Assembly: GCF_000380185.1 (NCBI RefSeq)
Contig: NZ_KB904746.1
Coordinates: forward strand, 62,001 to 126,000
DNA: 64,000 nucleotides
Reading direction: 5' to 3'
From: Thiofilum flexile DSM 14609
GTDB taxonomy: Bacteria > Pseudomonadota > Gammaproteobacteria > Thiotrichales > Thiotrichaceae
A program made the translations under genes and the position numbers. Below the pieces are notes generated by a model. That model saw only the letters and a program-made list of their open reading frames with translations. It was not told where the DNA came from and did no database searches. Shown piece after piece: positions 45,941 to 51,889 of this stretch; positions within the stretch are counted from its first letter, which is position 1, and the number at the start of each line of letters is the position of its first letter.

Positions 45941-46663
45941 TTAGGGGGTTGCGGGCTTAAGATACAATCGAATTGTGGTATTAGGGGTACTCAATTTCTC
46001 AGTCACTTGATAATGCTGTAGAATTTGGCGGGTACTCTGGGTTAAAGGCGCATCTGGTGTATGTATTATTAGTATAGTGCCTTGCTTATCTAAATCTGAA
46101 ACCTCCGTAACAGTAAAATGAACCGCCCTCAAATCACGTATTAGCCCTACCTTTGTTGTTTTTATATCCTCCACTAATAGTGTTTTGAGCGGAATCTGAT
46201 CATTATTCTTATCATTAATGGGTTTAGGATTAGGTAAACCAACACTAGCATCACGGGTGACTTCTATCGTTACTGGCTCTGTTGACAGGGGCTGATGCTG
46301 CCACAGTAAACGCGCTCCTAATACCGCTATCAGTAGCATAGCTGCACTGGCTAACCACATGGGTTGCAGCACCGAACCCGAAAAGCCAAAACGCTCCCAC
46401 CAAGTAGGCTTAGGTGCTTGCGTGACGGGTACTGTAGTAGTTTGCTCTGGCGGGGTAATCGCTAAGCGTTGATAAAATTGCTCTAGTATAGGCTCAACAG
46501 CCTGATCGGTTAGGGTATTCGCCTCCTCACAAGCCGCTTGCCATAATAAATACTGTTGTAAGGCGGTTTGCTCATCCTGAGAGAGTTTTGGCTCACCCCC
46601 CTCAGCTTGTAACCATGCTTGAAAGGATAAACGCTCACTAGCGGCAGGTTGAGGTTCTAACAT
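45941..46663 (-). CDS. Probable anti-sigma factor, single membrane span
   Basis: Protein of 240 residues with one membrane segment at about 102-119 (MWLASAAMLLIAVLGARLL). The N-terminal cytoplasmic part, from LSFQAWLQAEGGEP on, would hold the sigma factor; it lacks the zinc HxxxCxxC motif. The C-terminal part is periplasmic with a beta-rich domain. Its ATG overlaps the sigma factor stop by seven bases, the usual gene order for ECF sigma/anti-sigma pairs. Function follows from topology and position. Confidence 0.7.
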   Translation of the reverse strand: MLEPQPAASERLSFQAWLQAEGGEPKLSQDEQTALQQYLLWQAACEEANTLTDQAVEPILEQFYQRLAITPPEQTTTVPVTQAPKPTWWERFGFSGSVLQPMWLASAAMLLIAVLGARLLWQHQPLSTEPVTIEVTRDASVGLPNPKPINDKNNDQIPLKTLLVEDIKTTKVGLIRDLRAVHFTVTEVSDLDKQGTILIIHTPDAPLTQSTRQILQHYQVTEKLSTPNTTIRLYLKPATP

Positions 46664-47250
46664 AATTCCTCCCGCAATTGCTGCATCAATTTACGCAACT
46701 CAGACAACCGATTGGTAACAGCAGCCTTAGTACGCCCTACCTGTGCGGCTAATTCTGCATAATCCAATTCTTGGGCTACCCCTTGTAATAAACGCATATC
46801 GCTCTCACCTGCCTTACCGCGCCGAATGTGCTCAAATACCACTTCTAAACAATGCTCAATACTCAGCAAGATTTCGGGGCTTAATGCCTCTTCATCGCTT
46901 AGCTCTGCCACTGCATCCTCATTACCTGTTTCGACGGATGGAGTAGTAGCTTTATAAGGCTCAACACCCTTTTTTTTGCGTTGGCGCAGGCAATCAATAC
47001 TGGCGTTATAGACAATAGTCCGTATCCATGCGGGGCAATGACCGTGCTGGGTATGGCCTGCCTGATAAAGCTTAATCAGCACCTCTTGGCTGACATCCTC
47101 AACCTCGGAATCAGTAAGCCGTACACTGTCATAATGAAACTGTTTAACAAGGGTTTTGACCAGTTTGGCTATTTGTACCGCACTGTAATGATCGCGAGCT
47201 AAAAACCCCTGTAACAAAGCACGGCAGTCCGCATTGGACGGCTTAATCAT
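46657..47250 (-). CDS. ECF-type RNA polymerase sigma factor
   Basis: Protein of 197 residues from the ATG at 47250. Region 2 has VEDVSQEVLIKLYQAGH near 57 and CPAWIRTIVYNASIDCLRQR near 80 (promoter melting and -10 recognition). Region 4 has LDYAELAAQVGRTKAAVTNR near 165 (helix-turn-helix for -35). An acidic linker separates them. It is the middle gene of caspase, sigma, anti-sigma, 24 bases after the caspase gene. Its likely targets include the elements at 49418, 50903 and 51801 (inference). Confidence 0.88.
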   Translation of the reverse strand: MIKPSNADCRALLQGFLARDHYSAVQIAKLVKTLVKQFHYDSVRLTDSEVEDVSQEVLIKLYQAGHTQHGHCPAWIRTIVYNASIDCLRQRKKKGVEPYKATTPSVETGNEDAVAELSDEEALSPEILLSIEHCLEVVFEHIRRGKAGESDMRLLQGVAQELDYAELAAQVGRTKAAVTNRLSELRKLMQQLREELC

Positions 47251-47274
47251 AACGGACACTCCCAAAAACAAATG

Positions 47275-48498
47275 CTAGCGACTGTAATTTCTGCGGACTA
47301 AATGAACCCCTAATTGTGGATGACTATAACAGGGAATATCATCGCCTAGTTTACTACACTGCTGCAAACGTTCTTTCTCTTCTTCTTGCCGATAAAAAGC
47401 CGCAATATAGGCAAATTCTTCCGGGGTTGGTAATTCATAAGAATGATCGGCTTGCATTAGGGTATACCAATTAGCATAAGCCTCACTATCATTTTTACTT
47501 AAACAGGATGCCATATAATTATCTGATAAATTCCAACGCAATGTCGCATTAAGCATAAATTGCTTATCTTGATACACCCAACACCCTCCATGTTTGTCTG
47601 AGTCCATCGTGCGTGGTTTGCTCATTAGCATCTCTCTAATATCAGCTTGATTAATAGCCGTACTGCTTAAAATCAATGGTGTGCTAATACATATATTATC
47701 TTTAATACATCCAGTAGGTAAAACCATAAACTCTTTAGCGGCAATAGTTTTACATCCTGCCAAACACACCGCACGACCTAATGAGTTATCTACCTCAGGT
47801 ATTTGTTTGCCCTTTGTTTTTAACTCTGTGAGTGTAGCGGCTTCACTGGCTAAAGTTGCAATATTTTCATGAGGAAACTCTTTTAGCAATTGCGTCATTT
47901 TTTCAGTAAACGGGTTGTTATCACTTACTTTACTGCCTTTGGCAGCAGAATAAATAAACAACCCTTTTCTACTTTTTAAGTTAATTCCAAAATAAGACGG
48001 TGAAACATAGTTATAATAATTAAGCGGGTTATCTCTACAAGCATCTAGCCACACAATTATTTTTGCTGTTGGATTAGCTTCAGCTATTTTTTCTAATCGA
48101 GTATTGATTAATAAGCTACTAGTCGGAGTACTTCCATCATACTGTGGACTATCAGTCGCTAGTAAATAGGCAGCATTATTATGCTGTAATGCATGTCCAG
48201 CATAATAAATATAAATTTCTGTAGCTGTTTTAGCTCGCCGCTCTAACTCGTCAAACCACTGATTAAGATAGTTAATATCAAGATCAAGTAAATGTCCGCT
48301 ATTAATTACATCAACACCATTAGACGTCAAGGTATCGAACATTAACTTCATATCTTTAGCTGCCTCTGGTAAGACAGTATGGAATTGATAGCTTTGATTC
48401 CCTATCACTAAAGCGATGCGCTCACCCGCTAGCGCATTAAGGGGTAATAGCAATACCCATAGCAACACCCACCAGAATTTTTTACGCTTCACACTCAT
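47275..48498 (-). CDS. Caspase-like peptidase with SUMF1-like C-terminus
   Basis: Clan CD peptidase of 407 residues from the ATG at 48498. Signal peptide VLLWVLLLPLNALA. The p20-like domain (about 26-260) starts ERIALVIGNQSYQF and has catalytic His102 (YYAGHA) and Cys154 (WLDACRDNPL), both present. After about residue 310 a short formylglycine-enzyme-like segment has SKNDSEAYANWYTLMQ, YELPTPEEFAYIAAFYRQ and the terminal GVHLVRRNYS, a truncated SUMF1/FGE domain. The signal peptide implies a periplasmic location. It heads the sigma/anti-sigma operon. Confidence 0.9.
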   Translation of the reverse strand: MSVKRKKFWWVLLWVLLLPLNALAGERIALVIGNQSYQFHTVLPEAAKDMKLMFDTLTSNGVDVINSGHLLDLDINYLNQWFDELERRAKTATEIYIYYAGHALQHNNAAYLLATDSPQYDGSTPTSSLLINTRLEKIAEANPTAKIIVWLDACRDNPLNYYNYVSPSYFGINLKSRKGLFIYSAAKGSKVSDNNPFTEKMTQLLKEFPHENIATLASEAATLTELKTKGKQIPEVDNSLGRAVCLAGCKTIAAKEFMVLPTGCIKDNICISTPLILSSTAINQADIREMLMSKPRTMDSDKHGGCWVYQDKQFMLNATLRWNLSDNYMASCLSKNDSEAYANWYTLMQADHSYELPTPEEFAYIAAFYRQEEEKERLQQCSKLGDDIPCYSHPQLGVHLVRRNYSR

Positions 48499-48647
48499 CA
48501 CCTCTTCTAGAACATACGAAGTCGCTGTCCAAGTCACAATCGCCTTGAAATTTTAGCAAGAATCGGGGGTGTAATGCGAGGAATGAATGAGGGGAAAAGC
48601 TAAGGGATTTAAGGTATTATTTAAACCCCTCAGGAATACTATGCTAT

Positions 48648-49217
48648 TTAACCTATGTTGGCATTAGCGCCCACATTAGGATTAACACCTACGTTGGGAT
48701 TAATATTGGGTAAGTTACCAGAAATATTGCCATTGCTTTGTCGACCGAAAGAATGAGAACTACCTCCACCAATAGGTGCAAACAGTGAGCCTATCCCGCC
48801 TATTAGTGAGCCTATCCCACCTATTAATGATCCCCATCCCCCCAGACCTGAAGAGCTAGAGTAACCACCCATCATAGGATAGCTAATCCCATAATTGGCA
48901 GGTTGGGCTGTATAATAATAGCCACCACCACTCATCGCAGGATAGCTAACCTGATAACTGGCAGGTTGAGTAGTATAATAGCTACCACCACTCATCCCAG
49001 GATAAGACGCGGAAGAACCAATGCTACCTAATAAACCTGAAGCAATATTGCTGATAGAAGAGCCTAAAGAACCTAGACCGCTCATACCACCTGAAAAGGG
49101 GCTATACCCACTATAAGAACTATAAGACCCTGTAGGTAAACAGTCTAAACCATTAAAGAAACCAGTACCGAATGTACTACCGCTACCGCCTATACCACTC
49201 ATTAAATTAAAAGTCAT
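48648..49217 (-). CDS. Gly/Ser/Tyr-rich protein, paralogue 1
   Basis: Unrecognised 189-residue protein. The N-terminus MTFNLMSGIGGSGSTFGTGF and the following CLPTGSYSSYSGYSPFSGG are nearly identical to paralogue 2, with the ISNIASGLLGSIGSS block shared by all three. Repeats of YPGMSGGSYYTTQPASYQVS type follow, then GGIGSLIGGIGSLFAPIGGG and an Asn/Gly tail (NPNVGVNPNVGANANIG). No classical signal peptide. CAGGAG precedes the ATG. Leader and promoter-like element as in the other two copies. A secreted or matrix protein is likely by composition, unproven. Confidence 0.8.
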   Translation of the reverse strand: MTFNLMSGIGGSGSTFGTGFFNGLDCLPTGSYSSYSGYSPFSGGMSGLGSLGSSISNIASGLLGSIGSSASYPGMSGGSYYTTQPASYQVSYPAMSGGGYYYTAQPANYGISYPMMGGYSSSSGLGGWGSLIGGIGSLIGGIGSLFAPIGGGSSHSFGRQSNGNISGNLPNINPNVGVNPNVGANANIG

Positions 49218-49417
49218 ATCATACTCCTGATGATGTTATGGTTATCCTTACTATTCCCTATGTGCGCTCACATTTTTTAGTTATGGAGTGTTTAAGCACT
49301 AACGGGTAATTGATCCAATTAATACCCATATAATTAAAAATATATTAACTAGATAGATAGATATACTAGTTAGATAAAATGCAAGATACGAGGCATTAGC
49401 CGACGAACCTAACAGTC

Positions 49418-49452
49418 ATTAGGATAAACGGAATAATCTTTCGGATGGTCAC
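49418..49452 (-). promoter_or_regulatory. ECF-type promoter element, paralogue 1
   Basis: Minus strand: GTGACC, 16 bases, CGTTTATCCTAAT. The block ATTAGGATAAACGGA (plus strand, 49418-49432) is identical before all three paralogues. About 200 bases upstream of the ATG, leaving a long leader. Confidence 0.6.
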
Positions 49453-49565
49453 AATTAAGATCCCCTACAACTTATAATGAAAAAAGGAGGCAAAATAAGG
49501 CCACTAGGATTACTCTCTAACATTAATTTGCAAACACACACCCATTCCATCGAGAATCTCAGCAA

Positions 49566-49600
49566 TGCCTCACTCGCTAGTGCACTAAGGGGTAATTTAA
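49566..49600 (-). pseudogene. Remnant of the caspase gene start
   Basis: GCAATGCCTCACTCGCTAGT and the next 15 bases match 48414-48448 inside the signal-peptide region of the caspase gene over about 35 bases with few mismatches and one gap. On the minus strand it still reads IPLSALASEALL beside LPLNALAGERIA of the true gene. A further match (GCCTTGAAATTTTAG at 49612, 48542 in the original) lies just downstream, after a deletion of some 90 bases. Scar of the tandem duplication. Confidence 0.75.
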
Positions 49601-49650
49601 ATATCCAAATGCCTTGAAATTTTAGTAAAAATAAGAATGATAAAGTGAGG

Positions 49651-49699
49651 AATAAAAAAGAAGGATTAAGGGATTTAAAGTATTTTATAAATCCCTTAA
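49651..49699 (-). terminator. Terminator of paralogue 2 unit
   Basis: TTAAGGGATTTA and TAAATCCCTTAA pair perfectly over 12 bases around a 10-base loop; on the minus strand TTCTTTTTT follows. The corresponding position after paralogue 1 (48602-48631) holds a degraded version with one mismatch. Confidence 0.7.
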
Positions 49700-49740
49700 A
49701 AAAACATATTATATGATACTCAATCTACTTATAGATTAAA

Positions 49741-49928
49741 TAATATTTATGAAACTACCTAAGATACCACCTAATCCTATTCGAGATATCGAAACTGCCA
49801 TCATCATCATAAATCTCTAATGAGTCAGTCAGACCCTATACCTTCGTCATAAATAGAGTGGGTTCTCTTCGGTGGCTAAAAGAAAGTTCACTGTCACTTG
49901 CAGAGAATCATTATTCACTAAAGTGTGT
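49741..49928 (-). pseudogene. Decayed C-terminus of paralogue 2
   Basis: Beyond the stop of paralogue 2 the minus strand still encodes, in two frames, SLEIYDDDGSFDIS and RIGLGGILGSFINII. These match VYVEEDDGLSGLF and GLFGGILGSFLNKI, the end of paralogue 3. Stops and frame changes separate them from the open frame. So paralogue 2 once had the acidic C-terminal domain and lost it by mutation. Confidence 0.75.
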
Positions 49929-50699
49929 TCAAGAATAACTCACGCTATCATTAGCCATATAATAATAATTACTACCACTCATCGCGGGATAACTAGCTTC
50001 ATAAGCGGTAGGCTGATAGCTAAGCTCGTAAGTGGCAGGCTGATAGCTAACCTCATAAGTGCTAGGTTGAGCGGTATAATTATCACTAGCACTCATCACA
50101 GGATAGCCAGCTTCACTAGCTTCATAAGCGGTCGGCTGATAGCTAAGCTCGTAAGTGGTAGGCTGATAGCTAACCTCATAAGTGGTAGGTTGAGCGGTAT
50201 AATTATCACTAGCACTCATCACAGGATAGCTAGCTTCATAAGCGGTAGGCTGATAGCTAAGCTCGTAAGTGGCAGGCTGATAGCTAATTTCGTAAGTAGT
50301 CGGCTGATAGCTAACCTCATAACCGGCAGGTTGAGCTGTATAATAGTCACTAGCACTCATCGTGGGATAACTAGCTTCATAAGCGGTTGGCTGATAACTA
50401 ACCTCGTAAGTGTTAGGCTGATAGCTAACCTCATAACCGGCAGGTTGAGCCGTATAATAATAGTTACTATTACTTGTCATGGGATAAGACAGGGTAGAAC
50501 CAATATTACCTAATAAGCCCGAAGCAATATTGCCTATAGAAAAGCCTAAAGAGCCTAGACCGCTCATACCACCTGAAAAAGGGCTATACCCACTATAAGA
50601 ACTATAAGACCCTGTAGGTAAACAGTCTAAACCATTAAAAAAACCAGTACCTAATGTACTACCACTACCGATTAGATTATTCATTAAATTAAAAGTCAT
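49929..50699 (-). CDS. Tyr-rich repeat protein, paralogue 2 (truncated)
   Basis: Protein of 256 residues. The first 75 residues match paralogue 1 (MTFNLMNNLIGSGSTLGTGF, CLPTGSYSSYSGYSPFSGG). From about 85 to 245 it is built of an 8-residue unit x-x-Y-E-V-S-Y-Q-P (TYEVSYQPTTYELSYQP), grouped in four larger blocks, each ending EASYPxMSASD and starting YTAQP. It has about 45 Tyr residues. The reading frame ends SVSYS, after which the old C-terminus is decayed, so the protein is shorter than its ancestor. Low-complexity Tyr/Gln/Pro sequence suggests assembly or adhesion. Confidence 0.78.
   Translation of the reverse strand: MTFNLMNNLIGSGSTLGTGFFNGLDCLPTGSYSSYSGYSPFSGGMSGLGSLGFSIGNIASGLLGNIGSTLSYPMTSNSNYYYTAQPAGYEVSYQPNTYEVSYQPTAYEASYPTMSASDYYTAQPAGYEVSYQPTTYEISYQPATYELSYQPTAYEASYPVMSASDNYTAQPTTYEVSYQPTTYELSYQPTAYEASEAGYPVMSASDNYTAQPSTYEVSYQPATYELSYQPTAYEASYPAMSGSNYYYMANDSVSYS
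49966..50480. repeat. 24-bp tandem repeats coding YEVSYQP-type units
   Basis: Plus-strand unit of the form GGCTGATAGCTAACCTCATA recurs about every 24 bases, in four larger blocks separated by TAGCACTCAT-containing spacers. Near identity between blocks indicates recent expansion by slippage or recombination; copy number may vary between strains. Confidence 0.88.
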
Positions 50700-50902
50700 A
50701 TCATACTCCTGATGATGTTATATCCTTACTACTCCCTATATGCTCTCGCATTTTTAGTTGATTATTTAGTTATCAAGTGTTTAAGCACTAACAGGTTATT
50801 AATCCAATTAATACCTTGGTTACAAATATATTAACTGGATAGATAGATACTAGGTAGATAAAAGGATAAACACGAGGTTATAGCTGATAAAACCCTATAT
50901 TT

Positions 50903-50937
50903 ATTAGGATAAACGGAGTAACCCTCCGGACAGTCAC
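50903..50937 (-). promoter_or_regulatory. ECF-type promoter element, paralogue 2
   Basis: Minus strand: GTGACT, 16 bases, CGTTTATCCTAAT. Same spacing and identical 15-base downstream block as in copies 1 and 3, 204 bases before the ATG. Confidence 0.6.
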
Positions 50938-50964
50938 AATTAAGATCCCCAGCGACTCACAAAG

Positions 50965-50995
50965 AAAAAAGGGGTTTAGTAATACTAAACCCCTT
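50965..50995 (-). terminator. Terminator of paralogue 3
   Basis: AAGGGGTTTAGT and ACTAAACCCCTT form a 12-bp stem with a 3-base loop; on the minus strand a TTTTTT run follows. 35 bases after the stop of paralogue 3 and just before the promoter of paralogue 2, insulating the two. Confidence 0.88.
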
Positions 50996-51029
50996 AGAGA
51001 AAAAATAATAAAATTTAGCCCATTATGGT

Positions 51030-51596
51030 TTAAATTTTGTTTAAGAAACTACCTAGAATACCACCGAATAACCCTGAAAGGCCGTCATCTTCTTCCACAT
51101 AGACACCATCTATGCCATCCGAGTAAACCCCATCCTCATCGCTAAATAGTAAGTCCAAACCGACTTTATCAAGCAACGATCCTGCAAGACTCTGTAAGCC
51201 ACCTTGTACTACGCCATCGACTATAGAATCGAATATTGAATCAGATTCTGAATCATCATTATGGTCGTCTACCACCTCATAACTCTCATCAGCAACATAA
51301 TAAAGTGGACTATCCTCGGCACTCACCTCATAAGCTATTGCTGGTTCAGTGGTATAATACTCACCCCCAGTCATCACAGGATAAGCCACAGATGAACCTA
51401 GACCAATGCTATTTAATAAGCCCGTAGCAATATTGCCCACAGGAGAGCTTAAAGTACCTAGATGACTCATACCACTTGAAAAAGGACTGTTTGTCCCGCT
51501 ATAAGCAACGGTAGGTAAATAGTCTGCACTATTTAAAAAACTAGTACCTGATGTATTACCCTTGCCTGCCAGACTGTTTATTAAACTAAAAGTCAT
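51030..51596 (-). CDS. Gly/Ser-rich N-terminus with acidic C-terminus, paralogue 3
   Basis: Protein of 188 residues. The N-terminus MTFSLINSLAGKGNTSGTSF and the NIATGLLNSIGLGSS block are diverged relatives of those in copies 1 and 2. The middle has a single short Tyr segment (EYYTTEPAIAYEVSAE). The C-terminal 100 residues are very acidic (DDHNDDSESDSIFD, SDEDGVYSDGIDGVYVEEDD) and end GLFGGILGSFLNKI. The Asp-rich stretch could bind calcium. It appears to retain the complete ancestral architecture. Same leader and promoter-like element as the others. Confidence 0.78.
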   Translation of the reverse strand: MTFSLINSLAGKGNTSGTSFLNSADYLPTVAYSGTNSPFSSGMSHLGTLSSPVGNIATGLLNSIGLGSSVAYPVMTGGEYYTTEPAIAYEVSAEDSPLYYVADESYEVVDDHNDDSESDSIFDSIVDGVVQGGLQSLAGSLLDKVGLDLLFSDEDGVYSDGIDGVYVEEDDGLSGLFGGILGSFLNKI

Positions 51597-51800
51597 ATCA
51601 TACTCCTGATGACATTGTGTGTATTCTCACCAATCCTTGTGTATTGCCCTATTCTTATTTATCGGCATTAACAAGTGATTACTCCAAATCACTCCAAGCC
51701 CTACGTTTGTTTGTAGTTACGAATGTATTAATTGGATCAATGGATATACTAGGCAGATAAAATGCCTAACACGAGGTACGAGATGACGAACCCAGCATTC

Positions 51801-51835
51801 ATTAGGATAAACGGAATAATTTGTCAGACGGTCAT
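51801..51835 (-). promoter_or_regulatory. ECF-type promoter element, paralogue 3
   Basis: Minus strand: ATGACC, 16 bases, CGTTTATCCTAAT. The 15-base downstream block is identical to copies 1 and 2 although the surrounding leader has diverged, which supports functional constraint. Confidence 0.6.
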
Positions 51836-51889
51836 AAGTACTCCCCTTTTATTCGTGTGAAAAAAGGGGAGCGGATGAGATGAATAGAT

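Follow-up and report, generated by a model that had tools for sequence, protein, structure and literature searches.

Three tandem genes on the minus strand of Thiofilum flexile DSM 14609, here called g1, g2 and g3, share a promoter-like element, and just downstream of g1 lie the genes of a caspase-domain protein, an ECF-type sigma factor and a candidate membrane anti-sigma factor (Table 1). The locus raises two questions: (i) does the sigma factor recognise the elements of its neighbours, and (ii) does the caspase take part in releasing it? The window analysed is a stretch of 64,000 nucleotides; searches also covered the whole 3.79-Mb genome and 63 genomes of the bacterial family (62 besides that of the window).

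Table 1. Features of the locus, in window coordinates
Feature	Position	Strand	Remarks
Membrane anti-sigma candidate	45941..46663	-	overlaps sigma stop; helices at N-terminus, a single TM segment
ECF-type sigma factor, 197 aa	46657..47250	-	Pfam region 2 above cut-off, region 4 weak
Caspase-domain protein, PF00656 2.5e-14	47275..48498	-	YYAGH and DAC intact
Extended -10 TGCTAAAAT	48550..48558	-	candidate housekeeping promoter of caspase operon
Hairpin of 13 bp between g1 and caspase, U-tract poor	48600..48633	-	missing from terminator predictions
g1, 189 aa, Gly 24% / Ser 20%, no family match	48648..49217	-	
g1 promoter-like element TGACC-N16-CGTTTATCCTAAT	49418..49451	-	exact match
Decayed copy, after g2, of g1-caspase spacer and 5' end of caspase	49561..49696	-	
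g2, 256 aa, Tyr 16% / Ser 16%, YEVSYQP-type internal repeats, net charge -19	49929..50699	-	
g2 promoter-like element TGACT-N16-CGTTTATCCTAAT	50903..50936	-	exact match
Strong terminator after g3, ahead of g2 element	50969..50995	-	
g3, 188 aa, acidic, net charge -25, most diverged paralogue	51030..51596	-	
g3 promoter-like element TGACC-N16-CGTTTATCCTAAT	51801..51834	-	exact match

A shared element upstream of three tandem genes

The original prediction placed a two-block element about 200 bases before the ATG of each of the three genes. Exact matches confirm this placement, with 200-205 nt between the 3' end of the element and the ATG in every case. The span is the same in all three copies, as had been claimed, and measures 34 bases for the full element TGACY-N16-CGTTTATCCTAAT, not 35. 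In its short form, TGACY-N16-CGTTTATCC, the exact pattern occupies 49451-49422, 50936-50907 and 51834-51805 of the minus strand. The -35 sequences are TGTGACC, TGTGACT and TATGACC, and the block of 15 identical bases was also found as predicted: the 15-mer ATTAGGATAAACGGA is invariant across the three elements. The proposal that the two blocks have the geometry of an ECF promoter is likewise supported.

The element is confined to the locus. No exact copy of it lies outside the g1-g3 upstream regions anywhere in the genome, in which about 0.06 exact matches are expected by chance (our own count of the specified bases), and TGAC-N17-CGTTTATCCTAAT has no further genomic site at up to two mismatches. 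A scan at three mismatches gave 15 sites where the control gave 11, and so provides no further regulon members. Across the 63 family genomes, the motif with one mismatch occurs at background level, about as often as the reversed control.

That the element occurs three times is no proof by itself, because the upstream regions are homologous through tandem duplication: long repeats join the three units, and upstream identity is 81% for g1/g2, 69% for g1/g3 and 68% for g2/g3. The fair test of constraint is excess conservation over the flanks, not copy number. The invariant run TCCGTTTATCCTAAT extends over 15 columns, the next longest outside the ribosome-binding site over 8, and the sole run longer than the 15-mer comprises the ribosome-binding site and start codon. 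The 15-nt run has P = 0.0017 by column permutation, P = 0.019 under an autocorrelated null and P = 0.026 when only ungapped columns are counted, which is moderate evidence that the 15-mer is under constraint beyond the conservation of its flanks. The -35 part yields only a 4-base invariant run, TGAC, at fixed spacing. The motif is supported by three homologous copies from one genome only.

A diverged sigma factor and its partners

The ECF-type sigma gene and membrane anti-sigma gene described next door are present: the caspase, sigma and anti-sigma genes, tightly packed and on the same strand as g1, form one operon. The sigma factor is a small protein with regions 2 and 4 only, the ECF form. 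Region 2 scores 29.2 bits against PF04542 (cut-off 24), region 4 falls below its cut-off (PF08281, E 0.041) and TIGR02937 gives 34.8-35.3 bits, under the cut-off of 42.9; region 4 of the relatives is likewise sub-threshold, yet stronger than that of the window sigma. The nearest relatives all belong to the same bacterial family, and searches of genome contigs, plasmids and class-wide genomes with the sigma factor and the paralogues returned no relatives outside it. Judged by its sequence, the protein belongs, as a diverged member, to an ECF lineage that this analysis encountered in no other family. Its region 2 DNA-contact stretch reads YNASIDCLRQR, against RNEYIDHLRR in the relatives, and such divergence is what a different promoter specificity would need.

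The sigma lineage is normally paired with a membrane protein bearing an FGE (sulfatase-modifying-factor) domain. Wherever the partner gene was read, the relatives' sigma gene is followed by one for a membrane FGE-sulfatase protein, and these partners match PF03781 at 1e-54 or better. Such operons (L105-L120, also on contig C30 of the same genome) resemble the window locus in their homologous sigma, 22-31% identical, and in a partner, encoded downstream, whose N-terminal segment is related and which has a single transmembrane segment. They differ from it in that the FGE domain is gone from the window partner and a reduced FGE-like module is found on the exported caspase, and in that the relatives' operons lack the element. 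The copy on contig C30 (L110, 7000-8919) is a paralogous sigma and membrane FGE-protein operon, also without the element.

The anti-sigma candidate has no Pfam or NCBIfam match, PF03781 included. A single transmembrane segment is read from its sequence near residues 102-122, and the C-terminal domain beyond it is probably outside the cytoplasm. The N-terminus bears a weak resemblance (hhalign probability 62) to that of the proteins paired with the related sigmas, and the HxxxCxxC of Class I zinc-binding anti-sigma factors is absent from the translated N-terminal region.

The exported caspase of the original prediction is also supported. Its sequence starts with a hydrophobic stretch that looks like a signal, and its intact His/Cys pair places it among caspase/metacaspase-like peptidases (PF00656). 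Residues 300-367, at its C-terminus, align to the FGE domain of the relatives' partners; an FGE remnant sits on the exported caspase, and the anti-sigma lacks the domain. The C-terminal region at 47275-47600 (minus strand) is a reduced FGE module, the domain that the relatives carry on the anti-sigma.

Co-occurrence of motif and operon in related genomes, suggested as a check, did not materialise: searches of the 62 other family genomes and of wider collections found neither an orthologous caspase-sigma operon nor the g1-g3 paralogues, and no sister genome was found for the locus. The element is missing upstream of 15 of the 16 related sigma operons. In genome G012, CTGTGAC-N14-CGTTTATCC stands upstream of a related sigma gene (L112, 7501-7535, minus strand). 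This site is probably due to chance: the orthologues lack it, its 14-base spacer falls 3 bases short, and upstream of it there is an extended -10 of sigma-70 type, TGCTATACT.

What may read the element

No sigma-70-like site of at least 9/12 and no extended -10 was found upstream of g1-g3 on the same strand; the caspase operon has an extended -10. The operon in turn has no clear element, its best upstream site scoring 13/16 with a 14-base spacer. That site, at 48539 and fourth-best in the window, was treated as a probable chance match.

Adjacency, confinement of the motif to the locus, ECF geometry and the want of a good sigma-70-like promoter at g1-g3 all point to the neighbouring sigma factor; the ECF41-like gene order, the diverged region 2 stretch, the weak resemblance of the anti-sigma N-terminus to the relatives' partners and the joint duplication of paralogue and caspase start also count in its favour. 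Against it stand the related sigma operons, which lack the element with one off-spacing exception, the want of a clear element before the caspase operon, the presence of other ECF-sized sigma genes, the small number of homologous motif copies, and the failure to find a sister genome. On these sequence comparisons, the chances that the adjacent sigma recognises the TGACY-N16 elements of g1-g3 are about even. The elements could instead be real ECF-type promoters read by another sigma of the genome, with the adjacent operon a bystander. Candidates exist, since the genome holds at least four other ECF-sized sigma genes as well as the paralogous sigma with its FGE-type partner on contig C30; however, no element at up to two mismatches occurs elsewhere in the genome, and hence none near any other sigma-70-family gene, which makes this reading quite unlikely. 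It is also unlikely that the block serves a DNA-binding regulator as operator, or that it is one degenerate site resembling a DnaA box, the candidate TTATCCTAA being a 7/9 match to TTATCCACA, with transcription starting elsewhere. Invariance is indeed strongest over the 15-column run and weak over the -35 half, but the block has no dyad symmetry, no better promoter was found between block and start codons, and TGAC is kept at ECF spacing in three of three copies.

Two further readings were weighed. Functionless residual identity after tandem duplication is rather improbable: it would fit upstream regions that are 68-81% identical overall and P values that rise to 0.019-0.026 under conservative nulls, but it sits poorly with 15 invariant columns against 8 for the next run outside the ribosome-binding site, and with the ECF geometry of the block. 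The block might also act as leader RNA, in which UCCUAAUGA pairs with and masks the ribosome-binding site UCAUCAGGA. The RNAalifold consensus does contain this pairing, invariant on both sides; its covariation term, however, is positive (unfavourable), the single folds of g2 and g3 lack the pairing, the z-scores are only -1.2 to -2.0 and there is no Rfam match, so that this explanation is very improbable.

Comparison with known ECF systems

If the adjacent sigma does read the elements, the closest parallel is with ECF41, whose promoter is TGTCACA-N16-CGTC (PMC3426412), to be set against TGTGACC-N16-CGTT at g1. In about one third of ECF41 loci the target bears the motif and precedes the sigma gene, both pointing the same way, and the sigma gene itself usually has no motif (PMC3426412); the window locus shows this order. 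ECF41 targets are also essentially local (PMC3426412). Autoregulation is common among ECF sigma factors, though not universal (PMC8103513); the caspase operon has no clear element of its own, and read-through from g1 is possible. The EcfG promoter, GGAAC-N16-CGTT, has the same geometry as the g1-g3 element (PMC3892343). The differences from ECF41 are fourfold: the window sigma ends directly after region 4, without the large C-terminal regulatory extension; the locus has a membrane anti-sigma candidate; the -35 differs from TGTCACA at 2 of 7 bases; and ECF41 targets are carboxymuconolactone decarboxylases, oxidoreductases and epimerases, whereas those proposed here are orphan low-complexity proteins. 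The chances are about even that the locus works as a small, self-contained ECF regulon like those of ECF41. It would be a variant of the familiar ECF/anti-sigma arrangement with local targets, not a novel type of system.

For the caspase, a precedent is found in Type III-E CRISPR systems (CASP-sigma, Csx30, Csx29), in which a protease cleaves a sigma inhibitor (PMC10028731). Both loci bring together a caspase-like protease, an ECF-like sigma and a sigma inhibitor (PMC10028731). No CRISPR parts were seen at the window locus, Cas7-11 and the TPR-CHAT protease not being among its genes; its caspase is of the PF00656 type and appears exported, and its inhibitor candidate is a membrane protein. The resemblance is one of logic only. 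In the RpoE-RseA-DegS system, cited in PMC10028731, a membrane anti-sigma with an outer domain is likewise combined with a protease outside the cytoplasm, a likeness that holds if the model is right; the caspase would replace the DegS-type protease, and cleavage at the window locus is only proposed.

A possible regulatory circuit

In the resting cell, the sigma factor would be held by the co-encoded membrane anti-sigma, and an envelope signal would lead to its release. Among the local proteins, the one most likely to cut the anti-sigma in its outer part is the exported caspase of the same operon. Freed sigma would then direct RNA polymerase to the TGACY-N16-CGTTTA elements, turning on g1-g3. 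The hairpin between g1 and the caspase gene is a possible leaky terminator and, because its U-tract is poor, read-through from g1 into the caspase operon is possible. Transcription from the g1 element may leak past it into the caspase, sigma and anti-sigma genes, providing positive feedback on top of the basal housekeeping promoter of the operon.

The least supported step is that of the caspase, which may cleave the anti-sigma, with a likelihood lower than that of the sigma-element link; it draws on the caspase's place in the operon, on its export and on the precedents of a protease acting on a sigma inhibitor. The most elaborate version, in which the exported caspase with its reduced FGE-like sensor cleaves the outer anti-sigma domain and frees a sigma dedicated to g1-g3 as lineage-specific low-complexity proteins, the sensor having moved from anti-sigma to protease, is quite doubtful. 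At present the circuit is a well-formed hypothesis from one locus in one genome. If true, it would offer a compact case in which a caspase-family protease governs an envelope sigma factor in a non-CRISPR setting, an example of a sensor domain that has switched between anti-sigma and protease, and a first handle on three orphan proteins for which no relatives were found.

The paralogues and the history of the locus

The products of g1-g3 had been described as low-complexity surface proteins, a description that is tentative at best: Pfam and NCBIfam gave no family match, a signal peptide is not evident, and the structure model is uninformative. A surface location is only a guess, because an obvious signal peptide is lacking. 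The models of g1 (pLDDT 39.7) and of the anti-sigma candidate (pLDDT 46.6) are too poor for fold searches. Nested repeats in g2, at 49999-50517 (minus strand) with spacings of 27 nt and about 114-141 nt, encode the YEVSYQP-type units.

The spacer between g2 and g1 (49561-49775, minus strand) contains the decayed caspase 5' end together with a remnant like the C-terminus of g3. These decayed copies show that a single duplication took in both the paralogue and the start of the caspase gene, and that g2 lost its ancestral tail. At the other end of the locus, a strong hairpin (z -5.5) at 51840-51872, directly upstream of the g3 element, probably terminates transcription of the darP-like gene that comes before it.
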